Shown: positions 38,147 through 52,577, numbered from the stretch's first letter. The stretch is DNA of 54,866 bases from Nitrospirota bacterium (GCA_016201825.1 JACQCD010000003.1:1-54866); one strand, 5' to 3'. Numbers and translations: made by a program. Notes: generated by a model not told the origin, from the letters alone.

Positions 38147-38196
38147 AATCCCACCCACGGGTCACGAGCAGGATGCTGAAAACCTCGGTAACGCCT

Positions 38197-38322
38197 GCCG
38201 GCTGTTCAAAAAGCGCCAGATGCAAGGCGGAGAGATGTCTTGCGCGCGGAGCGTACTGGCTCGTACGTGAGCACGCAAGACCGACTGACAACGCAGCAGA
38301 TGGAGATTTTTCAGCAGCCGGC
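38197..38322 (+). repeat. Structured dispersed element, copy 1 (126 bp)
   Basis: GCCGGCTGTTCAAAAAG...TTTTTCAGCAGCCGGC terminal inverted repeats; inner stem GTCTTGCG/CGCAAGAC; apex GGAGCGTACtggctcGTACGTGA. Confidence 0.9.
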
Positions 38323-38587
38323 TAGCATGGTGACGCCTTAGGTGGACCATCGTGTCGTCGAAGTCATCGACCTCGAGCGCGAGAGAGGGGCCGTCACTGG
38401 AGGGCTTCCAGTTGGGGCTCATCCCGATTCCGAGGGTGTGGGGTCCGACCTCGTACTCAAACCAGACCTGTTCAGAGTCAGTCGCAGTCGGCTTCCGGGT
38501 GAATCCAAGAACGCCTTCGTAAAAGGAACGAGCGCGATTGATATCCGTGACGGGGTAGGCGACAAAGGCGAATTCGAGAATCTTCAT
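38323..38587 (-). pseudogene. Truncated VOC (glyoxalase/bleomycin-resistance-like) gene, 5' portion only
   Basis: MKILEFAFVAYPVTDINRARSFYEGVLGFTRKP...LALEVDDFDDTMVHLRR, then the ORF reads into structured element copy 1. Confidence 0.75.
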
Positions 38588-38643
38588 GGCGATGAGTGCC
38601 CTTTTCGTACCGTGACAGGTTTCAATCTGCCAGAAATAGTACT

Positions 38644-38818
38644 CTGACCCCGATATTTCTCCGATATTTCTCGCAGCGGTACTGTGCTCTTTTCGTGGGA
38701 TAGTGCTCGCGGATCTCGTTGTGGAGCGCCTCAAGAGTTGCTAACGCGGAAGACGGCAGTGCATCAACTCGAATGTCAACGAGGGCTTCTTTGATCGGTG
38801 GATTTGGATAGGGTTGCA
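38644..38818 (-). pseudogene. N-terminal fragment of a TIGR04255-like protein
   Basis: MQPYPNPPIKEALVDIRVDALPSSALATLEALHNEIREHYPTKRAQ, then loss of recognisable sequence. Confidence 0.5.
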
Positions 38819-38950
38819 TCGTCAGCGATGTTACGCAGACCGAGAGGCTAATTACAAGATCCTGCTCTGAGTGGAGGAAGAAAATCCCTTGCTCCTCTTT
38901 TCTCCCACGGGAAAAACTCAAGATTAAAGATGCGACCCCTCAACCAGCTG

Positions 38951-39139
38951 CCGACCCCTCAACCAGCTGCACATCGACCCGCTGCTCCGGCACATTCAAC
39001 TCAACGCGCTCCACGGTCCATGGCTCCAACAAGCCCAACAGGTGTCGGTACAGCTCGGTATCGCGCACAGGAGGCCCTCCCGGTGAGTGCAGGCCCCCTC
39101 TATACCAGAATTCTCACCCACGGAAAAGCCGGAAGAACC
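38951..39139 (-). mobile_element. ISL3-family-like IS remnant (terminal repeat plus transposase N terminus)
   Basis: Reverse strand: GGTTCTTCCGGCTTTTCCGTGGGTGA end at 39139, then a GTG start at 39068 giving VRDTELYRHLLGLLEPWTVERVELNVPEQRVDVQLVEG, truncated. Confidence 0.6.
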
Positions 39140-39668
39140 TGAACTTGGCTGTGCCCAAACTATTCTGGTGCAGGTAGTAGCCTACCATCGCCCCGCTGGC
39201 CTCGGCTTTGAGCGGCAGTTGATCCACCTTCAGTGCATACACGGTAAAGATGTACCGGTGCGGCTTATCACCCTGCGGCGGACAGGGACCGCCGTAACCC
39301 GGTTGGCCAAAGTCGGTCATGCTTTGAATGCTGCCTTGGGGCGCCAACCCGCTATCCGGCTTTCCGGCGTTGGCGGGAAGTTTGGTCACTGAGGGAGGAA
39401 TGTTGAAGATGACCCAGTGCCACCACCCGCTGCCGGTCGGCGCATCGGGATCATAGACCGTCACCGCGAAGCTCTTGGTGTCCTTGGGAGCGTTCTGCCA
39501 GATAAGCTCCGGGGACGTATTGCCTCCGGTGCACCCAAAACCGTTGAAGACCTGTTCGGTCGCGATCGTGGCTTTATGTTTCAGGACCGGGCTGGATAGA
39601 TGAAAGTTTGCGGCGACGGCTGGAACGGTCCAGAGGACCATGACCACTGCTAACCAGATACGAGTCAT
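39114..39668 (-). CDS. YbhB/YbcL (PEBP/Raf kinase inhibitor-like) protein, C terminus altered
   Basis: Signal peptide; [44 protein letters not shown]. Last residues FFRLFRG* lie in the IS remnant end. Confidence 0.88.
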
Positions 39669-39928
39669 CTTCTTCTCCGTAGGTTGAACGCCGTTGCCTG
39701 ACTGTCTCCCGTCTTGGGATTGAACCACTCACCTTGCACCACCGCGGAGTGAGCCGTGACTGTTTGACTGTCGAAGAGGACGCGCACACCGGACCCCCTG
39801 TGGGACGGACCTTTTGCGTGACGCTGGGAGGAACGAGGGGCTCAGGCTAGCATAGTGCGGAACACGATTCAAGCCACCACCCCCACCGGATGGCCCACTG
39901 AACGGATCATCGGCACTGGTCGGTGTAG

Positions 39929-40051
39929 CAGGCTGCTCAAAAAGCTCCAGATGCAAGGCGGAGGGAGGTCTTGCGAGCGGAGCGTACTTACGCGTACGTG
40001 AGCACGCAAGACCGACTGACAACGCAGCAGATGGACTTTTTCAGCAGCCTG
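39929..40051 (+). repeat. Structured dispersed element, copy 2 (123 bp)
   Basis: CAGGCTGCTCAAAAAG...CTTTTTCAGCAGCCTG; inner stem GTCTTGCG/CGCAAGAC; apex GGAGCGTACttacgcGTACGTGA. Abuts the RND stop codon at 40052. Confidence 0.92.
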
Positions 40052-43000
40052 TTAGAGCTCGATGCTGCTTCCGACCCCCGCCCCCTCGCCATTCCCGGCA
40101 ATGGACTGCACCTCAACCTCCGGAATCCCTGGCGTGCCGGATTGGCTTTTCCGCCGCGGGTGCGGGGTTCGCCCCGTCAGCTTGCTGCGCAAGAGCACGT
40201 AGAAGACCGGGGTGAGGTTCAAGCCGAAGGCGGTCACGCCGATCATGCCGGTGAACACCGCGATGCCCATGGCTTCGCGCATTTCCGCGCCGGCGCCGAA
40301 GGAGAAGACCAGGGGCATCACGCCGGCGATAAACGCGATGGACGTCATCAGAATCGGCCGCAAACGCAAGCGGGCCGCTTCCTTGGCGGCCTCCACCACA
40401 CCCATGCCGCGCTGTTCCAGCTCGCGGGCGAACTCGACGATCAGGATCGCGTTCTTGCAGGCCAAGCCCACGAGCACGATGAAGCCGATCTGCGTGAAGA
40501 TGTTGTTGTCGCCGCCCTTGCCGATGTGGCCGAACAGCCACACGCCGAAGATGGCGGAGAGCAACCCCATCGGCACGATCATCACCACCGCCAGGGGCAA
40601 GGTCCAGCTTTCATACAGCGCCGTCAGCACCAGGAAGGCCAGCACCACGCACAGCGGAAAGACGAGCAGCGTCGTATCGCCGGCGAGGATTTGCTGGTAG
40701 GTGAGGTCCGTCCACTCGAACGTCAGGCCGTTGGGCAGATTCTCCCGCGCCAGCTTCTCCATCATCGCCTGCGCCTGCCCGGAGCTGACGCCGGGCGCGG
40801 CCGCGCCGTTCACGTCGGCCGCGAGATAGGCGTTGTAGCGAATGGCACGGTCCGGTCCGTAGCTTGGCTGGACCTTCATCAGCGAACCGAGCGGCACCAT
40901 CTCGCCCGCGCTGTTACGCGTCTTGAACTGCGCGATGTCCTCCGGCTTCTGGCGAAACGGCGCGTCCGCCTGGGCGATCACCTGGTAGGTGCGGCCGAAT
41001 CGGTTGAAGTCGTTCACGTACATCGAGCCCAGGTAGATCTGCAGGGTCTCGAAGATGTCGGTGACCGCCACGCCCTGCTGCTTGGCCTTGACGCGATCCA
41101 CGTCGGCGAACAATTGCGGCACGTTGATTTGCACGCTGCTGTAGGTCTGATAGGGGTTGATGACTCCCGACATCCGCGCCTTGTTGAGCAGGTTTTGCGT
41201 CTGCTGGTACAACTCCTCGATGCCCAGATCGGCCCGATCCTCCACCATCATCTTGAAACCACCACTGGTGCCAAGGCCCAGGATCGGCGGCGGTGGGAGC
41301 ACAAAGACAAAGCCATCCTGGATGCCACCGAGTTGTTGATTGAGCGCGCCGGCGATGGCCGGCGCCGACATGCCGGGGCCTTTGCGCTCCTTGAAGTCCT
41401 TGAGGGGGAAGAAGACGATGCCGGCGTTGGGCGCGTTGGAGAAGCCGCTGATGGACAGGCCCGGGAAGGCGACCGCATTCTCCACGCCCGGCTGCTCCAG
41501 CGCAATGGCCGACATGCGGCGGATGACATCTTCGGTGCGGTCCAGCGACGACGCATCGGGCAATTGCGCGACGCCGATGAGATAGGCCTTGTCCTGCGCC
41601 GGCACGTAGCCGCGATGCTCTTGTGACCCAGGATGGTCCCCAGCCCCCGGTAGTAGCTTTGGGACCGGTTGGTGAAGAGCCGGTTGAACGGCCGGAACAG
41701 CCAGCCGAAGGACTTGTCCATGAATTTGGTCAGCCAGTCCTTGGGCGCATCATGGCCCTTGAGCAGCAAGGCCGCGAGAGCGGGCGAAAGGGTCAGCGAG
41801 TTGAACGCCGAAATCACCGTGGAGATGGCGATGGTCAGGGCGAACTGGCGATAGAACTGGCCCGTGAGGCCGCTCACGAACGCGATGGGAACGAACACCG
41901 CGCACAGCACGAGCGCAATGGCGATGATCGGCCCGCTCACTTCCTGCATGGCCTTGTAGGTCGCATCGCGCGGAGAGAGGCCCAACCCGATATTGCGCTG
42001 GACGTTCTCCACCACGACGATGGCGTCGTCGACTACGATGCCGATCGACAAGACCAGGCCAAAGAGGGACAGGGCGTTGATGGAAAAGCCGAACGGCAAC
42101 ATCAGGGCGAAGGTGCCCACGACGGACACCGGCACGGCCAGCAGCGGAATGATCGAGGCGCGCCAGGTCTGCAGGAACAGGATCACCACCAGCACCACCA
42201 GCAGCACCGCGATGATCAGCGTCTCCACGACCGCCTTGATCGAATCGCGCACGAAGATGGTCGGGTCGTACACGATCGAGTAGTCGACGCCCTGCGGGAA
42301 CCCCTTCTTCAGCTCCTCCATGGCGCGCCGCACGTCGTCGGAAAGCTGGATGGCGTTCGAGCCCGGCGCCTGGAAAATCGCCACCGCGACCGCCGGCTTG
42401 TTGTTGAGCAAACTGCGCAGCGCGTAATCGGCGGCGCCCAGTTCGAGGCGCGCCACGTCGCCCAGGCGCGTGACCGCGCCGCCTTCGCCGGTCTTGATGA
42501 TGATGTCGCGAAACTCGTCTTCGGTGATGAGCCGACCCTGCGCGTTCACGATGAGCTGAAAGTCGGCGGCGCCCTTGCCATTGCTCGGAAACGGCGGCGC
42601 GCCGATGGTGCCGGCGGCGACTTGCAGATTCTGCTCGCGGATCGCCCGCACCACGTCGCCGGGGGTGAGGCTGCGTGCGGCGACTTTTTGCGGGTCGAGC
42701 CACACGCGCATCGCATAATCGCCGCCGCCAAAGGTGATCGCTTGGCCCACGCCTGGAATACGGGCCAAGACGTCCTTGACGTTGAGCACGGCGTAGTTGC
42801 GCAAATAGACCGTGTCGTAGCGCTGGTCAGGCGAGATCAGGTGCACGACCAGGGTCAGATCGGGCGAGCTCTTCACCGTGGTCACGCCCAGCCGGCGCAC
42901 GTCTTCCGGCAGACGCGGCAACGCCTGCGACACGCGGTTCTGCACCTGCACCTGGGCATTGTCGACGTTGGTGCCCAGCTTGAAGGTGATGGTGATCTGC

Positions 43001-43269
43001 ATGACGCCATCGGTGGTGGACTGCGAGGACATGTACAGCATGTTCTCGATGCCGTTGATCTGTTCTTCCAAAGGCGCCGCCACGGTTTCCGAAATGACCT
43101 TGGGGTTGGCGCCGGGATAGACGGCCCGCACGACGACCGAGGGCGGAACCACCTCCGGATATTCGCTGATGGGCAGCCGATTGAGGGCCAAGAGACCGGC
43201 GAGGAAAATGACGAGGGAGAGCACGGCCGCAAAGCGCGGGCGATCGATGAAGAAACGGGAGATATTCAT
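40052..43269 (-). pseudogene. RND efflux permease (HAE1/AcrB family), disrupted by internal deletion and frameshift
   Basis: Two overlapping frames: 43269 down to ~41612 (MNISRFFIDRPRFAAVLSLVIFLAGLLAL...YRGLGTILGHK) and ~41611 to 40052 (GYVPAQDKAYLIGVAQLPDASSLDRT...), each matching half of one transporter. Confidence 0.88.
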
Positions 43270-43277
43270 GGCAGCCC

Positions 43278-44552
43278 CTATCGACCGGCGAGCGTGGTGG
43301 CGGCCGGGAATCGCTCAGCCTTCTTGTCCGCCGGTTTTTCAACGGACTTTGCCTCGGGGGTTTTTTCTGACGACTTCTCCGGCGCGCCGGCCGGCGCATC
43401 CGCCTCGAGCATCGGCACGGTTTGCGGTGTCACCGCATCACCCGGCCGCACGCGCTGCAGGCCGTTGACCACGATCATCTCGCCGCCCTTGAGGCCCAGC
43501 TTCACCACGCGCAGTCCGTCAATCACCGGCCCGAGCTTCACTTCCCGGTAGAGCGCCTTGTTGTCCGCTCCCACCACCAGCACGAATTTCTTGCTCTGGT
43601 CGGTGCCAACCGCCTTGTCGTTGACCAGCATGGCTTTATAGGTGCCGCTGCCCACCAGCTTCAGCCGGGCGAAGAGGCCCGGCGTGAACGTGCGCTGCTT
43701 GTTGTCGAACACGGCGCGGGCGCGGATCGTCCCGGTCTGAGGATTGAGCGCATTGTCGACGAAATCCACGTAGCCCTGGTGCGGGTGGCCCTTCTCGCTG
43801 GACAGGCCCAGATAGATGGGATTGCGCGTGTCCCGCGAACCGGGCCGTTCGCCGCGTCGGCTGAGTTCGGCGTATTTGAGATAGACCTGTTCGTCACCCT
43901 CGAAATAGGCATAGATCGGATCCAGCGACACGACCGTGGTCAGCAAGGTAGACCCCGCCCCGCCACCGGTGACCAGGTTGCCGGCCGTGACTTCGGCGCG
44001 GCTGGTGCGGCCATTGATGGGCGAGCGGATTTTCGTGTAATCCAGATTGAGACGCGCCGTCAGCACGGCCGCCTGCGCGGCCTTGACCGCCGCGTCCGAA
44101 TCCTGCCGGCCGCTGGTCAACTGCTCGTACCCCTGCTGGGAGATGGCCTTGGATTGCACGAGTTCCTCCGCGCGGGCCAGATCGCGCTGGGCAAGGTCGA
44201 GTCTCGCGTTGGCGCGGGCCAGTTCGGCCTCGGCACGGGCCAGTTCGGCCTGCAGCGGGCGCGGATCGATCTCGAATAGCAGATCGCCCTTCTTCACCTC
44301 GGCCCCTTGCTGGAAATAGATCTTTTCGATATAGCCGGAAATACGCGGTCGTATTTCCACCCGCTCGACGGCTTCCAATCGGCCGGTAAATTCATCCCCC
44401 TCGTTGACTTCCTTCTCGATCACCGCCGCGACGCTCACCTGCGGCGGAGGCGGTGGGCCGCCAGGCCCCGGCGATGATGCCTTGTTACAGGCGGCGAGGA
44501 CCAGCACGGTTGCGAACAGCAACACCAGGTCATACGGCTTGTTTCGTCTCAT
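43278..44552 (-). CDS. RND efflux periplasmic adaptor (AcrA/HlyD family)
   Basis: Lipoprotein signal LAACNKASSP; FTGRLEAVERVEIRPRISGYIEKIYFQQGAEVKKGDLLFEIDPRPLQAEL. Confidence 0.93.
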   Translation of the reverse strand: MRRNKPYDLVLLFATVLVLAACNKASSPGPGGPPPPPQVSVAAVIEKEVNEGDEFTGRLEAVERVEIRPRISGYIEKIYFQQGAEVKKGDLLFEIDPRPLQAELARAEAELARANARLDLAQRDLARAEELVQSKAISQQGYEQLTSGRQDSDAAVKAAQAAVLTARLNLDYTKIRSPINGRTSRAEVTAGNLVTGGGAGSTLLTTVVSLDPIYAYFEGDEQVYLKYAELSRRGERPGSRDTRNPIYLGLSSEKGHPHQGYVDFVDNALNPQTGTIRARAVFDNKQRTFTPGLFARLKLVGSGTYKAMLVNDKAVGTDQSKKFVLVVGADNKALYREVKLGPVIDGLRVVKLGLKGGEMIVVNGLQRVRPGDAVTPQTVPMLEADAPAGAPEKSSEKTPEAKSVEKPADKKAERFPAATTLAGR

Positions 44553-44589
44553 GATCTTGATCTACTCCGCACTCGAAATGTGTTGGGGC

Positions 44590-47500
44590 CTAGGGTTTCG
44601 TCACGACGTATTCACGCCCCTTGACCAAGATGTCGGATCCCACGCCGTCGCCGTCGGCATCGGGCATCGGCTCACGCCGCCGCGCGAGCAGCGTGTAGGC
44701 GGTGGGAATCACGAAAAGCGTGAGCAGCGTACCGAGCAGCAAGCCGCCCACGATCACCCAGCCGATCTGTTGACGGCTTTCAGCCCCGGCGCCATGGGCT
44801 AACGCTAATGGGACCGAGCCCAGGATCATGGCGGCCGTGGTCATGAGGATCGGGCGCAAGCGCAGCGACGCGGCCTCGATGACGGCCTCGCGTACCGCGC
44901 GGCCCCGCTCCTGGAGTTGGTTGGCGAACTCCACGATCAAGATCCCGTTCTTGGCGATCAAGCCCACCAGCATGACCATGCCGATCTGGCTGTAGACGTT
45001 CAGCGTGTTGCCGGTCAATTTCAGCGAGAGCAGCGCACCGGTCATGGCCAGCGGGACCGAGAGCATGATGATGAACGGGTCGATGAAGCTCTCGAACTGC
45101 GCGGCCAGCACCAGGTAGAGGAACGCCAGCGCCAACGCGAAGGCCAGGTACATGCTGGCGCCGGATTCTTTGAATTCCCGCGACTGGCCGTCGAGCGCGG
45201 TCTGCGTGCCCGGCGGCAACACCTCTTTGGCGGCCTTGTCCATGAACGCGAGCGCGTCGCCTAGAGCCACACCGGGCGCCACGTTGGCCGAGATGGTGGC
45301 GGACCGGAGGCGGTTGAAGTGGTTGAGTTCCTTCGGCGCCACGGTCTCTTTGATCTGCACGAGATTGGAGAGCTGGACCAACTGGCCGTTGGTTCCGCGG
45401 ACGTAGATTGCGGTCAGGTCGTCGGGGTTCGTGCGGTCCTTGTCCGCGACTTTGACGATCACGTCGTACTGCTCGCCTTCCCGCTTGAAACGCGTGACCT
45501 GTCGGCCGCCGAGCAGGGTTTCCAGCGTGCGGCCGACTGTTTCGACTTCGACCCCGACGTCCGCGGTTTTTTCGCGGTCCAGCTTGACCGAAAATTGCGG
45601 CTTGTTCAACTTCAAATCGGAATCCATGTTCACGAGGCCCGGAAACTCGCGGGCCTTGGCCATCAGCTTGTCGACCATGGTTTGCAGGTCGGCGTAGGTG
45701 TTCGCCTGCACCACGAACATCACGGGCGGGTTGCGAAAGCTCTGGCCGAGCGAGGGCGGGTTGATGGCGAAGGCCAGCACGCCCGGCAACCCGCCGAACA
45801 TTTTCGGCATCAAGTCCGCGACGATCGCCTGCTGCTTACGCCCCCGCTCCGACCATGGTTTCAGCATGACGAACGAGAACGCGGAGGTTACGGGGTTAGG
45901 CCGCTCCAGGCCGGGTGCCACCACCATGAAGTAGGTCTTGATCTCCGGCACCTGCTTGTAGAGCGCTTCCACGCGGCGCGCATACCCGTCGGTGTAGGCC
46001 ATGGTCGCGCCTTCCGGCGCCAGCATCACGCCGATGATGATGCCGCGATCCTCCAAGGGCGAGAGCTCGGCTTTCAGGGTCATGAACAACAACACGATCG
46101 CGCCGGCGGCGACCAGCCCCGTCGAGATGATCACACCGCGATGGCTCAGCGAACGGGTCAGCAGCGCCCGATACCCGGTGTTGAGCCGCTCGATCCCGCG
46201 CTCGATCAGCCGGTAGAGACGGCCGTGCTGACGTTCGTGACGCAGCAGTTTGGAGCACATCATGGGCGTCAGCGTCAGGGCCACGAAGCCCGAGACGAGC
46301 ACCGCGGCGGAGACCGTCAGGGCGAATTCCCGGAAGAGCCGGCCGGTGGTCCCGGACATGAACGCCACGGGCACGAACACCGCGGCCACCGTGATGGTCA
46401 TGGCGAGCACGGCGAACGCGATCTCTTTGCTGCCCTCCAGCGCCGCCTGACCAGGCGGCATGCCGCGCTCGATGCGGCGATAAATGTTCTCCAGCATGAC
46501 GATGGCGTCGTCCACCACGAGCCCGATCGCCAGCACCAGCGCCAGCAGCGTGAGTACGTTGACGGTAAAGCCCAGGGCGTAGACGAAGATGAAGGCGCCG
46601 ATCAGGGAGACCGGGATCGTGACGAACGGAATGAGCGTGGCGCGGCCCGAGCGCAGGAAGGAGAAAATGACCAGCACCACCAGGGCCAGGGCCTCGGCCA
46701 GGGTCTCGAACACCGACTTGATCGACTCGTCGATGAAGATCGAACTGTCGAAGCCGATCTGCAGCTTCATCCCGGGCGGCAGGGCCGCGACCAGGTTGGG
46801 CAACTCCGCTTTGACCGCCTTGGCCACGGCCAGGGTGTTGGCGTTGGACTGCTTGACCACGCCCACCCCGACCGCGGGATTGCCGTTGACGCGCACCGCG
46901 TTGCGATCGTCGGCCGCGCCGAGTTCGGCGTGGCCCAGGTCGCGCAGGCGCACCGGATAGGTGTTCACGTTGCGGATGATGAGGCGATCGAACTCCTCCG
47001 GCGTGCGCAGGTCGGTCTGGGTCAGCACGGAGAATTCGCGCTGACGGCTTTCGATGCGGCCCGCCGGCACTTCGACATTTTGCCGCCGTAGCGCGCCTTC
47101 CACGTCTTGCGGGGTGAGGCCGTAGGCGGCCAGCCGTTCGCGGTCCAGCCAGAGGCGCATGGCATAGCGACGCTCGCCCCCGATCATGACGCTGGCCACG
47201 CCCGGCAGCGTTTGCAGTCGGTCTTTGACGACGCGGTCGGCGTAGTCGGTGATCTCCAGCGGGCCGTGGCGATCGCTGGAGAATGCGAGCCAGATGATGG
47301 GGAAGGCATCGGCCTCGATCTTGGCGATGACCGGCTCATCGGTCTCAGCAGGCAGGCGTCCGCGGACGCGGGCGACGCGGTCCCGCACGTCGTTGGCCGC
47401 CGCGTCGATGTCCCGCTCCAGCGTAAACTCCACCGTGACCTGGCTGACCTCTTCGCGGCTGACGGACTTGATCGTCTTGATGCCCTCGATACCCGCCAAC

Positions 47501-47709
47501 GAATCTTCCAACGGCTGGCTGATCTGGCTTTCCACCACTTCGGCGCTGGCACCGGTATACACGGTGCGCACCGACACGATCGGCGCGTCGATGTTGGGAT
47601 ATTCGCGGACCGCCAGGCGCGTGTACGAGATGACGCCGATCAAAATCAGCATCAAACTCATCACGGTCGCGAGGACCGGACGGCGAATGGACAGTTCAGG
47701 GAGAAGCAC
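44590..47709 (-). CDS. RND efflux permease (HAE1/AcrB family), intact
   Basis: 1039 aa; N-terminal LSIRRPVLATVMSLMLILIGVISYTRLAVREYPNIDAPIVSVRTVYTGASAEVVE; GLVVDDAIVMLENIYRRIE. Confidence 0.95.
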   Translation of the reverse strand: MLLPELSIRRPVLATVMSLMLILIGVISYTRLAVREYPNIDAPIVSVRTVYTGASAEVVESQISQPLEDSLAGIEGIKTIKSVSREEVSQVTVEFTLERDIDAAANDVRDRVARVRGRLPAETDEPVIAKIEADAFPIIWLAFSSDRHGPLEITDYADRVVKDRLQTLPGVASVMIGGERRYAMRLWLDRERLAAYGLTPQDVEGALRRQNVEVPAGRIESRQREFSVLTQTDLRTPEEFDRLIIRNVNTYPVRLRDLGHAELGAADDRNAVRVNGNPAVGVGVVKQSNANTLAVAKAVKAELPNLVAALPPGMKLQIGFDSSIFIDESIKSVFETLAEALALVVLVIFSFLRSGRATLIPFVTIPVSLIGAFIFVYALGFTVNVLTLLALVLAIGLVVDDAIVMLENIYRRIERGMPPGQAALEGSKEIAFAVLAMTITVAAVFVPVAFMSGTTGRLFREFALTVSAAVLVSGFVALTLTPMMCSKLLRHERQHGRLYRLIERGIERLNTGYRALLTRSLSHRGVIISTGLVAAGAIVLLFMTLKAELSPLEDRGIIIGVMLAPEGATMAYTDGYARRVEALYKQVPEIKTYFMVVAPGLERPNPVTSAFSFVMLKPWSERGRKQQAIVADLMPKMFGGLPGVLAFAINPPSLGQSFRNPPVMFVVQANTYADLQTMVDKLMAKAREFPGLVNMDSDLKLNKPQFSVKLDREKTADVGVEVETVGRTLETLLGGRQVTRFKREGEQYDVIVKVADKDRTNPDDLTAIYVRGTNGQLVQLSNLVQIKETVAPKELNHFNRLRSATISANVAPGVALGDALAFMDKAAKEVLPPGTQTALDGQSREFKESGASMYLAFALALAFLYLVLAAQFESFIDPFIIMLSVPLAMTGALLSLKLTGNTLNVYSQIGMVMLVGLIAKNGILIVEFANQLQERGRAVREAVIEAASLRLRPILMTTAAMILGSVPLALAHGAGAESRQQIGWVIVGGLLLGTLLTLFVIPTAYTLLARRREPMPDADGDGVGSDILVKGREYVVTKP

Positions 47710-47710
47710 G

Positions 47711-48814
47711 TTAACCTTTGGCGGCCGGCGGCGGCCCGCCGGGCCCCGGTCCTTGATTGATCACGGTGACCGGAGCCCCGTCGCGAATCTTCATCTGGCC
47801 GCCGGTGACGACCACGTCTTCGGGGCTCAGCCCCGAGACGATCTCGGCCTCGCCGTCTTTGCGCCGGCCGATGACGACCTTCACTATCACGGCCTTGCCC
47901 TCGACCACGCGGAACACGAACGCGTCGTCGCCTACCGGCACCACGGCCTGCTCGGGAATCAGGACCGCGTTCGGCCGATCGGCCACGACCACGGCCACTC
48001 GCGCGAACATCCCGGGCAACAAGGCCCCCTGCGGATTCGGGATCCGTGCCCGCACGATCACGGTCCGCGTGGCGGTATCGAGATGCGGATCGAGGGCTTC
48101 GATCATCCCCGTAAACGTGCCGGCCGGAAACGCGTCGACGCGGACCGTGACCGGCTGGCGAACCGCCAGATGCCCGAGCCGCGCCTCCGGCACGCGGAAA
48201 TCGACCTTGACGGTGGACACGTCTTCCAGGTTGACCAGGGCCTGACCCGGCTGCACGTAGTCGCCCGGGCTCACTTGGCGCAGGCCGAGCGTCCCGCCGA
48301 ACGGCGCGCGGATCGCGGTCTTATTCAGCCGCTCCCGGGCCACCGCCAGGCTCGCTTCCGACTCCTTGAGTTTCGCGGCAAGCTGGTCGAAGTCCTGGGG
48401 GCTGATCAGCGCGGCCTCGCGCAGCGGTTTGGCCCGCTCGACGTTGTCGCGGTTGAGACCCAACGTGGCTTCGATCTGCGCCACTTGCGCCGCGGCTTCC
48501 GCCGAGTCCAAGCGGAACAACGCGTCGCCCGGTTTGACCGTCCGCCCCTCGACGAAGTCGATGGACGCAATCCGTCCCGGAATTTCCGAGCGGATCACGA
48601 CCGACTCATTGGCCGAGAGCGACCCGACCGCGGCGATCTCGTCGGTCACCGCGCCGACGCGTACGCGCGCCGCCTCCACCGGCATCCCGCGCATCTCGCC
48701 CCCTTGGGGAGGCTTGGGGCCGCCCTCGCCGCGGGAGCCGGCCACGCCCCACGCCACGACCCCCGCCGTCGCGACGGCGATCACCGCCAGCATCCATCTG
48801 CTTCGAGCTGTCAT
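47711..48814 (-). CDS. RND efflux periplasmic adaptor
   Basis: GSLSANESVVIRSEIPGRIASIDFVEGRTVKPGDALFRLDSAEAAAQVAQIEATLGLNRDN. Confidence 0.92.
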   Translation of the reverse strand: MTARSRWMLAVIAVATAGVVAWGVAGSRGEGGPKPPQGGEMRGMPVEAARVRVGAVTDEIAAVGSLSANESVVIRSEIPGRIASIDFVEGRTVKPGDALFRLDSAEAAAQVAQIEATLGLNRDNVERAKPLREAALISPQDFDQLAAKLKESEASLAVARERLNKTAIRAPFGGTLGLRQVSPGDYVQPGQALVNLEDVSTVKVDFRVPEARLGHLAVRQPVTVRVDAFPAGTFTGMIEALDPHLDTATRTVIVRARIPNPQGALLPGMFARVAVVVADRPNAVLIPEQAVVPVGDDAFVFRVVEGKAVIVKVVIGRRKDGEAEIVSGLSPEDVVVTGGQMKIRDGAPVTVINQGPGPGGPPPAAKG

Positions 48815-48844
48815 CGGTCTCTCCCTACCAACGGATCGAGCACG

Positions 48845-50161
48845 CTACGAGCCCGCCGGCGTCTCCTTCAGGGCCTCGGCCAAGAACACTCCGGCGCTGC
48901 GTTGCAGATCCAGAATCGCCAGATGCCGATCGTACGTCGCCGCGATCACGTCGCGCTCGGCTTCGATCAGGGCTTGGTTGGCGTCGAGCGCGTCCAGATT
49001 GGTGGCCAGACCGAACGTGAATTGCTTCGACACCATCTCGTAGTTTTTCTGCGCAAAGCGGAGCTGATCCCGGCGCGAGTCCAGCGCGCGGGTGACGGCC
49101 TCGAGGGTAAGACCCGCGCGGGTGACGTCCAGATCGATCTGCTTGCTCAGCTTCCCGGTCTCCAGCCGGCCTTGTTCGTACCGGGACTTGGCCTGGCGCC
49201 ACTCCGCGACCCGCAGCCCGCCTTCGAAGATCGGAAACTCGATTTTGCCGCCCACGAACCAGTTCTGCTCGATGAAGAAGGTCGCCTGGGGATCCTGCCG
49301 GCGACTGGACACACTGCCTTCGAGCTTGACGCTGGGCAGAAAATTCCCGCGCGCGAACGCGATGCGCTCCTCCGCGATGCGCTCCTGGACGCGGCTTCGC
49401 TGGATCTCCTCACGGTTGCTCTGCGCCGCCTCGCGCAATTGCGTCATCGGCTCCTCCGGAACGCGGGGCGCCGGGGGTTCGACGATCTCCACCTCGCCGG
49501 TCAACCCGGCCAACAACCCGAGTTCCCGCTTGGCCACCGCGACGTCTCGCTCCCGCGCCACCAACTCGGCGTTCGCGCCCGCCAACTCCGCTTCCGCCCG
49601 CAACAGAATCGACTCGGTCACCTCACCCACTTTGTAGCGCAGTTCCGACAGGCGCCGATGCTCCTTGAGCCGCTCGACGTTGCGCGCTTGAATCTCGGCG
49701 GTCTTCTGCGCCCGCAACACGGTGTAAAAGACCTCGGCGACGTGCAGCAACAGCTTTTCCCGCGCCAGGCGGACGTCCTTCTCGGCCGTCACGGTCTCCT
49801 GCTGGGCAATGCGACGACCGGCGCTGTTCTTTCCCCCGGCGTAGAGCGACTGCTCGACGCGCGCCTCCGCCCCATACCCTTCCCTCGGTTGAAGGATCGT
49901 CGTGGAAGTTCCCAGATCCCTCGTCTTCTCGGGGTACCGCGTGTAGTCTCCGCTCAACGTGAGCTGGGGGAACACCGTCGAGATCGCGCGGCGTTCCTCC
50001 TGCTCCGATTGGCGGACGCTTTCGACGCTGATCTGGAGGTCCTCGCTGTGCTCGATCGCCCGACCGTAGAGTTGGCGGAGCGTCAACGGTTCAGCGCGCG
50101 CCGTCCCCACTCCCATTCCCAGCATCACGATCATCACCGGTACGAACAGTCGCTGCTTCAT
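48845..50161 (-). CDS. TolC family outer membrane efflux protein
   Basis: Signal peptide, LTLRQLYGRAIEHSEDLQ, repeated helical OEP domains. Confidence 0.9.
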   Translation of the reverse strand: MKQRLFVPVMIVMLGMGVGTARAEPLTLRQLYGRAIEHSEDLQISVESVRQSEQEERRAISTVFPQLTLSGDYTRYPEKTRDLGTSTTILQPREGYGAEARVEQSLYAGGKNSAGRRIAQQETVTAEKDVRLAREKLLLHVAEVFYTVLRAQKTAEIQARNVERLKEHRRLSELRYKVGEVTESILLRAEAELAGANAELVARERDVAVAKRELGLLAGLTGEVEIVEPPAPRVPEEPMTQLREAAQSNREEIQRSRVQERIAEERIAFARGNFLPSVKLEGSVSSRRQDPQATFFIEQNWFVGGKIEFPIFEGGLRVAEWRQAKSRYEQGRLETGKLSKQIDLDVTRAGLTLEAVTRALDSRRDQLRFAQKNYEMVSKQFTFGLATNLDALDANQALIEAERDVIAATYDRHLAILDLQRSAGVFLAEALKETPAGS

Positions 50162-50841
50162 CAGGCCACCTTTCCGTCCCCGACCCGTGCCCGCTCACCC
50201 GTTTGCCGCAAGACACCGCCGAGAAACACATCTCGGATCACCTCGGCTTTACCCACCAACGATTCGTCGCCCGCGCTCACGATCCAGCGGTGGATGATCG
50301 CGTTCATCATCCCGTCGAAGAGGTGCGCCATTTCACGGGCATCCATCTTCTTGAGGGCCCGGCTCCGGATCCCCGCGGACAGGGTCGAGGTGATCAGCGC
50401 CAAGTAGTCATCGCGCCGCGCCGAAATTTTTTCCCCCAAGGCTCCCTTCACGGAACACTCGCTGCCGCCCCATTCGGTGACGTAGATCCGGAAAAATGTT
50501 CGGTGTTTTTCGAAGAAGCGGACCTTGGTGGCGATCAGCGCGTCCACTTTCTCCAGCACCCCCTTGGCGGCGCGCACCTCGCCCTGCGCGAGCGCGAGGT
50601 ATTCCTCGAACTTTTCTTCCATCAGCGCGACGTAGATGGCGTCTTTGGAGGCAAAGAATTGGTACAGCGAACCGACCGAGAACTCGGCGTCATGGGCGAT
50701 CTCGGCCATGCTGGTCTTGAAAAACCCCTTATGGGAGAAGAGGCGTTCCGCGACCCCGAGGATTTCTTGGCGCCGCTGGTCGGTCTCCCGCTCCCGACGA
50801 CTCGGCCGACCAGCCCGTTTCAGACCAGAACCGGTGTTCAC
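50161..50841 (-). CDS. TetR/AcrR family regulator
   Basis: RRQEILGVAERLFSHKGFFKTSMAEIAHDAEFSVGSLYQFFASKDAIYVALMEEKFEEYL; adjacent to the RND/tolC genes. Confidence 0.92.
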   Translation of the reverse strand: MNTGSGLKRAGRPSRRERETDQRRQEILGVAERLFSHKGFFKTSMAEIAHDAEFSVGSLYQFFASKDAIYVALMEEKFEEYLALAQGEVRAAKGVLEKVDALIATKVRFFEKHRTFFRIYVTEWGGSECSVKGALGEKISARRDDYLALITSTLSAGIRSRALKKMDAREMAHLFDGMMNAIIHRWIVSAGDESLVGKAEVIRDVFLGGVLRQTGERARVGDGKVA

Positions 50842-50952
50842 CGTGACGAACCTCTATTCTTCTTCACGAACATGGATTCAAAATACTGAATCGGCACCGG
50901 CTTTGTCAAGCGACGCTAGCAGGATACTGAAAAAACCCGGGAAAGCGTGGTG

Positions 50953-51073
50953 CAGGCTGCTCAAAAAGCTCCAGATGCAAGGCCGCAGGGAGGAGGAAAC
51001 CGGAGCGTACTGGGTCGTACGTGAGGATTTCCGACGACCGAGCACGCAGCAGATGGGCTTTTTCAGCAGCCTG
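50953..51073 (+). repeat. Structured dispersed element, copy 3 (121 bp)
   Basis: CAGGCTGCTCAAAAAG...CTTTTTCAGCAGCCTG; inner stem changed to GGAAAcCC/GGaTTTCC; apex GGAGCGTACtgggtcGTACGTGA. Confidence 0.92.
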
Positions 51074-51085
51074 CTGCAGGACGGC

Positions 51086-52498
51086 CTACCGGCCCTTCTT
51101 CATCCGTACCTTGATGCGGATCGGCGTGCCGGCAAAGCCGAACTGCTTGCGGAGGGCGTTCTCCAGATAGCGGTGGTAGTTGGCGGGCAAGCCCGACGCG
51201 TCGTTGCTGAACGCGACGAAGGTCGGAGGCTTGGTCGCGGCCTGCGTGATGTAGTACAGGCGCACGGAGCGGCCCCTGGACAGCGGCGGCGGGTGGTCGC
51301 GCATGACCTTTTCGAAGAACCGATTGAGATCCCCGGTCGTCACGCGCTTGGTGTAGGCAGCCATCACGGTGTCGATCGCGGAGAAAATCTTCCCCACCCC
51401 CGTGCCCTTGAGCGCCGAAATGAACAGCGCCGGGGCATGTTCCAGGAACACGAACTTCTGCTTCACCTTGTCCAGGAACTCCTCCTTGGCCTCGTCTCCG
51501 CGCGGTTTGAGATCCCACTTGTTGATGAGCAGGATGCACGCCTTGCCCGCGGCCAGCGCGTCGCCCGCGATCTTGGTTTCCTGCTCGACCACGCCCTCGC
51601 TCGCGTCGATCAGCACCAGCGCGAGGTCTGCGCGCGCCACCGCGTCCTGCGCACGCGCGACGCTGAAGTGCTCCACCCCCCGCCCCACCTTGCCGCGACG
51701 CCGGATCCCGGCGGTGTCGATAAACCGGTAGGTCTTCGCCCCGCGCTCGACCACGGTGTCGATCGTGTCGCGGGTCGTGCCCGGCACCTCGCTGGTGACG
51801 AGCCGCTCCTCCCCCAGGATGGTATTGATCAGCGTGGATTTGCCCGCGTTGGGCCGCCCGAGGACGATGATGCGGGGCAGCTCGTCGGGCGGCGGTTCCT
51901 CGGGCGCCGCGGTCCGCTTGGGGATCGCCGCCTCCAACAGGTCGTCGAGGCCGTAGCCGTGTTCCGCGGAGAGGGGAAAGAGCCGCTCGACACCCAATTG
52001 GTAAAACTCGAACAGCTTCTCGTCGTGTTTCGGTCCGTCGATCTTGTTGACGGCATACCACACCGGCTTGGTCACCTTCCGCAGGCGTTCGGCGATTTCG
52101 AGGTCGACCCCGGTCAGGCCTTCCCGGGCGTCCATCATATAGATCAGCACGTCCGCCTCTTCGATCGCGAAATCGGTCTGGCGCTGGACCTGAGCCAAGA
52201 GCTGTTCCCCTCCGCCCGTCCCCTCCCGGCCTGAGAAGGCCGGGGTGACCGGCACGTGGTCGGGGATGATCCCGCCGGTGTCGATCAGCGTAAAGCGCGT
52301 TCCGCAGTACTCCACCGCGTGGTAGTTGCGATCGCGCGTCACCCCCGGCTCGTCTTGGACGATTGCAAGCCGATGCCCGACCAGGCGATTAAACAGCGTC
52401 GACTTGCCGACGTTGGGACGGCCGATCACGGCGATAAAGGGGTGAGGCAACCCTGATCCGCCGATACGGGGCGGCTGCTGCGTTGTCGCTTCAGTCAT
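51086..52498 (-). CDS. der: GTPase Der (EngA), tandem G domains
   Basis: Two G1 motifs (IGRPNVGKSTLFNRL and LGRPNAGKSTLINTI), DTGGI and DTAGI, NKID and NKWD, C-terminal KH-like domain. Confidence 0.96.
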   Translation of the reverse strand: MTEATTQQPPRIGGSGLPHPFIAVIGRPNVGKSTLFNRLVGHRLAIVQDEPGVTRDRNYHAVEYCGTRFTLIDTGGIIPDHVPVTPAFSGREGTGGGEQLLAQVQRQTDFAIEEADVLIYMMDAREGLTGVDLEIAERLRKVTKPVWYAVNKIDGPKHDEKLFEFYQLGVERLFPLSAEHGYGLDDLLEAAIPKRTAAPEEPPPDELPRIIVLGRPNAGKSTLINTILGEERLVTSEVPGTTRDTIDTVVERGAKTYRFIDTAGIRRRGKVGRGVEHFSVARAQDAVARADLALVLIDASEGVVEQETKIAGDALAAGKACILLINKWDLKPRGDEAKEEFLDKVKQKFVFLEHAPALFISALKGTGVGKIFSAIDTVMAAYTKRVTTGDLNRFFEKVMRDHPPPLSRGRSVRLYYITQAATKPPTFVAFSNDASGLPANYHRYLENALRKQFGFAGTPIRIKVRMKKGR

Positions 52499-52577
52499 GC
52501 GTCCTCACGTACGACCCAGTACGCTCCGGGCGCAGACCTCGCTCCGCCTTGCATCCGCCCCGTCTTGGCGGCCAGGG
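52451..52577 (-). repeat. Structured dispersed element, copy 4 (127 bp), overlapping the der start
   Basis: Reverse strand CCCTGgCCGCCaagaCGGGGCGG...CCGCCCCGtatcGGCGGatCAGGG terminal inverted repeats; GATGCAAGGCGGAG; TGCGcCC-GGAGCGTACTGGGTCGTACGTGA-GGaCGCA; ACAACGCAGCAG. Confidence 0.85.

Follow-up and report, generated by a model that had tools for sequence, protein, structure and literature searches.

The hairpin repeats in the window

The window (the whole analyzed stretch of 54,866 nucleotides from the draft genome of a Nitrospirota bacterium, GCA_016201825.1 JACQCD010000003.1:1-54866) carries four copies of a hairpin-forming repeat, whose coordinates are given in Table 1. Copy 1 occupies part of the 3′ portion of a minus-strand VOC (glyoxalase) gene, the right end of copy 2 adjoins the TAA stop codon of a minus-strand RND transporter ORF, copy 3 sits 12 nt past the stop codon of der (minus strand), and copy 4 adjoins the probable start region of der. 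The open frame of the VOC gene crosses copy 1 and terminates within the tail of that copy, so that approximately 54 C-terminal residues are encoded by the element; the VOC domain appears truncated. The AcrB/RND transporter gene seems to be split into two overlapping frames, by a frameshift or a sequencing error, and the frame adjoining copy 2 matches only profile positions 553-1020. A short tandem duplication lies between copies 1 and 2.

Table 1. Copies of the repeat and neighboring features in the window (positions counted from its first nucleotide)
Feature	Position	Strand	Ends and structure	4-bp flanks (left / right)	Covariance model match	E value
Copy 1	38169..38321	+	type A ends, CAGGATGCTGAAAA...TTTTTCAGCAGCCGG; left tail 38169-38196; hairpin 38197-38322	CGAG / CTAG	38198-38323 (+)	3.3e-13
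Copy 1, conserved core	38219..38299	+	GATGCAAGGC block, inner stem, apex GGAGCGTAC-N6-GTACGTGAG, CGCAGCAG block			
Copy 2	39929..40051	+	type A ends, without left tail	GTAG (39925-39928) / TTAG (40052-40055)	39929-40053 (+)	1.4e-20
Copy 3	50920..51073	+	type A ends with left tail (50920-50952); hairpin 50953-51073	CTAG (50916-50919) / CTGC (decayed)	50953-51075 (+)	2.9e-25
Copy 4	52451..52577	-	third end type, CCCTGGCCG...CAGGG; core like other copies		52454-52575 (-)	4.2e-9
VOC/glyoxalase open frame	38162-38734	-				
Tandem duplication	38936-38968		CGACCCCTCAACCAGCTGC (repeated)			
AcrB/RND transporter	40052-43269	-	overlapping frames 41248-43269 and 40052-41605			

A sequence-only reading of this DNA had described four copies of a structured element, and their positions were borne out to within 1-4 nt, as were the long imperfect hairpin, the sequences of the conserved blocks, the stem exchanges affecting both sides and the GA/GA positions around the CGTAC/GTACG stem. 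It is to be corrected in one respect: the mobile unit of copies 1 and 3 includes an additional left tail of approximately 30 nt, and the terminal repeat recurs, as a second copy, in the inner arm of the hairpin. On folding, each of the four copies (141-147 nt, in the orientation of Table 1) produced one long imperfect hairpin, with a minimum free energy of -65 to -78 kcal/mol.

We searched the window with a covariance model trained on 29 copies from other genera of the class, the genome of the window and its nearest relatives being excluded. The four copies were the four best matches, and the remaining ones represented only the opposite strand of copies 3 and 1, as near-palindromes predict. 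The left and right 4-bp flanks of the four copies do not match each other, which suggests that these insertions are probably old.

Structure and end types of the element

Alignment of the host copies together with their flanks revealed a common core of approximately 90 nt and several kinds of ends: (i) type A, CTAG-CAGGNTGCTGAAAAA ... TTTTTCAGCAGCCTG-CTAG, (ii) type B, CTAG-GAGNNTGTCC ... GGACAGGCTC-CTAG, and (iii) a third type with CCTGGCCG-type ends, represented by copy 4 of the window and by loci L016 and L039. In full-length copies the left end starts with an outer terminal repeat, continues with a tail whose length is about 35 nt in the host and about 80 nt in Nitrospira, and closes with an inner repeat; it is the pairing of this inner repeat with the right-end repeat that forms the outer stem. 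Two unpaired blocks are conserved, GCAAGGC(C)GCAG on the left and, on the right, GAGAACG in most relatives or GACAACG in many host copies; the tandem GA/GA that surrounds the CGTAC/GTACG stem at the apex is conserved as well. The left terminal repeat was recognizable in only 26 of 145 Nitrospira-type copies, which indicates that many copies are decayed or tail-less.

Several copies contain other short palindromes within the hairpin apex, namely TAGGGGTTCGACATGTCGAACCCCTA and GTAGGGGCGGGTC...GCCCCTAC (L007, L008 and L025 of the window's own genome; L073, L075 and L085), as if the hairpin tips were targets of insertion. Separate small hairpins were also present in the arms of Nitrospira copies, either in the right arm (GGTTCACGACGCGCG...; L104, L296, L297 and L308) or in the left (CACCCGCCCAACCCTGGCGCGCCGAGACGCG...; L111, L126, L136, L149 and L190).

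Distribution

BLASTN with copy 2 as the query yielded at least 42 copies in the host draft genome (2.8 Mb), own-genome counts being lower bounds because they come from searches, and matches in 22 of 40 relatives from the class Nitrospiria. We also scanned 84,980 GTDB species for the core pattern. Among the matches listed (at least 80 loci), 79 of 80 were in entries titled Nitrospira, Nitrospiraceae, Nitrospirae or Nitrospirota, and the remaining one was in an uncultured assembly titled Nitrosospira. The core pattern had no match in IMG/VR and copy 2 had none among plasmids and phages, and a phage or plasmid origin was rejected on these grounds.

Rfam returned nothing at the gathering score for the window, and the only matches obtained for a locus with two adjacent inverted copies were to miRNA families, far below gathering; the assignment to a known RNA family was dropped. 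The sequence-only reading, which knew of no family name for the element, agrees with this result, and a conserved core is present. In the open-access literature, to which the survey was confined, we found no description of a Nitrospira MITE or palindromic repeat of this kind.

Target site duplications and partner insertion sequences

The complete genome G027 (4,317,083 bp) contains about 17 nearly identical copies, mostly of 205 bp including the TA flanks, which are bounded by CAGGNTGCGGAAAAAC repeats. Fourteen of the 17 have identical 4-bp flanks (CTAG, CTAA, TTAG or CTAT; p 0.0003 versus shuffled pairing). Target-site duplications, named by the sequence-only reading as a feature to be looked for, are thus present in most of these copies but are not preserved in the four of the window.

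The same genome also carries one IS of 1.32 kb (L290/L310), bordered by TTAG on both sides, whose ends are identical to those of the MITE; 17 of 18 compared bases agree between its own two ends. Its 342-aa transposase belongs to the IS5 family (NF033581, E 4.5e-83; PF05598 and PF01609). Homologous ISs with CAG-N2-TG-type ends and YTAR flanks were found in other genomes of the Nitrospira family (G045, G034 and G055).

IS1182-family ISs with the CTAG-GAGCCTGTCC ends of type B copies were identified in G047 and G018, and one end of a third in G051. At two loci of this family (L358, L359) CTAG-GAGCCTGTC(C/T)GACATT is present at either end, with a spacing of about 1.62 kb, and a third locus (L360) has one such end; these sequences match the type B ends. 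Five contigs of G002 end inside repeats with type B ends, and two of these contig ends begin an ORF, MSKTYRPYEPDQV, resembling the N-termini of IS1182 transposases; the autonomous type B IS is incomplete in this genome because the contigs break inside it. Three contig ends of G002 (C1, C17 and C31; L332, L333 and L336) share 126 identical bases behind the type B end, starting the ORF MAVNLDTPGVEALMGSDRVRGIESVCRPGG, which had no match among plasmids; they may represent a third sort of autonomous element that has type B ends.

IS630 elements target CTAG, for which reason mobilization by an IS630-type (DDE_3) transposase was also considered. It was rejected, since in none of 30 loci was the transposase flanked by the ends of the element.

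Two of the host insertions (L024 and L009) are absent from the congener G001. The L024 site reads ...GCGCGG-CTAG-element-CTAG-TCTTTGCG... in the host and ...GCGCG-TCAG-TCCTTGCG... in the congener, and a gene stops there in both, at TAG in the host and at TGA in the congener. Judged from this alignment, the target is consistent with a 4-bp duplication, although the 4-mer of the congener (TCAG, not CTAG) has diverged.

The ends, the target duplications, the empty site and the autonomous partners in relatives all support the suggestion of the sequence-only reading that the element is a MITE mobilized in trans. As type A ends correspond to the IS5 family and type B ends to IS1182-type elements, one hairpin core of approximately 90 nt is shared by MITEs that two transposase lineages serve. 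Against this account, no IS with ends of either type was found in the window's own draft genome (89% complete), for which transposition in trans is our inference.

The sequence-only reading had also considered a REP-like element, moved in single-stranded form by a RAYT/Y1 transposase recognizing the foot of the hairpin. The copies are indeed palindromic and mostly intergenic, and Y1 transposases occur in 30 of the 40 relatives, including the host; however, none of the 30 Y1 loci of the class has the element in its flanking sequence, and the 4-bp target duplications and the DDE partner ISs with the same ends argue against such a mechanism, which we consider extremely improbable.

Another way to place the same core under different outer stems would be the stem-loop-replacing transposition reported for IS1272 (PMC5678879), in which hairpins serve as targets and their outer stems are exchanged. 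The palindromes nested in the apex and arms and the type B ends of the IS1182-family partner would fit such a process. Transposition of IS1272, however, is not accompanied by a target duplication, and the duplications and the ordinary empty site observed here make such a process quite improbable.

Position relative to genes

CTAG is generally avoided in bacterial coding sequences, and TAG stop codons supply it. Insertions often fall on stop codons because CTAG is rare in genes except at such stops: according to crude ORF calls, the right-hand gene faced the element in 108 of the 163 copies that were classified, and in these the stop codon of that gene was placed at the element end (median gap -2 to 1 nt). 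Within tandem gene pairs the element was oriented against the genes in 61 cases and with them in 27 (p 0.0004).

This bias is one of several observations that would be expected if the hairpin were a host-domesticated structured RNA, acting now mainly at 3′ ends as a terminator or mRNA stabilizer, with the transposon ends of historical significance only. The hairpin is kept while the left tail has become unrecognizable in most copies, and the arms of type A contain an A-tract and a T-tract. In contrast, T-tracts are missing from types B and C, the copies were not picked by a simple terminator scan, and the young, near-identical, duplication-flanked copies testify to recent mobility. Taking these points together with those from base pairing described below, we regard domestication as possible, though somewhat unlikely. 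A general role as an intrinsic terminator was rejected, since the T5 run of type A is part of the outer stem, and types B and C have no such run.

Covariation and conservation of the hairpin

The covariation test proposed by the sequence-only reading was performed with a script of our own, whose tree-aware null follows R-scape (100 null alignments for 125 sequences). The ten top-ranked of 7,875 column pairs were all pairs of the hairpin (p 3e-17), but only three column pairs (5-120, 8-117 and 45-80) passed the strict tree null at E<0.05.

For orthologous insertions with conservation of both flanks, all pairs whose elements had an identity above 0.8 were pooled. Altogether 17 base pairs were altered on both sides, versus 3.0 expected under independence, and 13 of the 17 still pair. 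In L163/L200 the 80-nt core is identical, with flanking genes 79% identical and a left flank beside the element that could not be aligned, which also accords with a domesticated RNA. Some shared sites hold different subfamilies, which points to repeated insertion at a favored stop codon or to gene conversion as possible explanations.

Among the imperfect pairs, read on the element's plus strand, G-T (140) was more frequent than A-C (80), a hint that a single strand is the one that folds, as domestication would also predict. However, most of the abutting genes are transcribed from the strand opposite to this excess, so that this comparison is suggestive without being decisive.

Selection on a folded form, claimed by the sequence-only reading, is thus supported but not proven: the covariation falls on the hairpin and double changes are in excess, yet arm-to-arm conversion or repeated insertion could give the same result. 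The best reading is that the hairpin is kept either by selection or by arm-to-arm conversion; selection acting on RNA would be our inference from this pattern.

Proposed origin and significance

The repeats very probably constitute a MITE family of the class Nitrospiria that is mobilized by DDE transposases, being moved in trans by enzymes of the IS5 and IS1182 families, and whose hairpin is maintained after insertion. A non-autonomous unit with short terminal inverted repeats would insert at YTAR/NTAN sites, preferably CTAG, and generate a 4-bp duplication, the units with type A ends being moved by IS5-family transposases and those with type B ends by IS1182-family transposases. The right terminal repeat pairs with its own inverted copy, which yields the outer stem of a hairpin of 120-125 nt; throughout the class the unpaired blocks of this hairpin are conserved, and its stems vary on both sides. 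After insertion this hairpin would be maintained, most likely in folded form within transcripts at the 3′ ends of genes, where the A-tract/T-tract layout of type A arms, unlike types B and C, could terminate transcription both ways.

A more speculative and, in our opinion, unlikely extension is that the module of approximately 90 nt has been conserved across the Nitrospiria in its own right and that any CTAG-targeting transposase lineage at hand carries it, its arms being swapped with the ends of various IS families. It would then be a parasite of several transposons rather than the derivative of one, and would in addition provide the host with an RNA structure at 3′ ends.

The proposed MITE family accounts for an abundant repeat in the genomes of nitrifying Nitrospira and names the transposases likely to move it. 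One hairpin core combined with the ends of two transposase lineages offers a natural way to test whether the interior of a MITE is junk or a structure under selection, and by inserting at stop codons a mobile element may reshape gene 3′ ends in a simple manner without gene disruption.

Comparison with known systems

MITEs derived from ISs are well known. The repeats described here share with the IS5- and IS1182-derived MITEs of bacteria the terminal inverted repeats in common with an IS, the 4-bp NTAN-type duplication, the lack of coding capacity and the presence in many copies; they differ from them in the internal hairpin core, which is conserved class-wide under the ends of two transposase lineages.

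REPs are likewise small extragenic palindromes occurring in many copies, but they measure 20-40 bp, carry in most cases a short motif tag such as GTAG, and are linked to RAYT genes (PMC2817692, PMC3116915), whereas this size, the motif tag and the RAYT linkage are absent here. IS1272 of the IS1182 family, for which replacement of target stem-loops with no target duplication has been reported (PMC5678879), resembles the present system in the transposase family of the type B ends and in the link between palindromes and transposition, but it is an autonomous IS. By analogy, IS1272-like replacement would offer a route to the exchange of outer stems, although it conflicts with the duplications seen here.

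ERIC, a family of approximately 127-bp elements reviewed in PMC10969869, is similar in size, in its long imperfect palindrome, in its tens of copies per genome and in its possible effect on mRNA at gene 3′ ends. It differs in taxonomic range and in target, and the likeness is one of size and shape. We know of no mobilizer of ERIC. In size and shape, ERIC can be regarded as the nearest analogue of the repeats described here.
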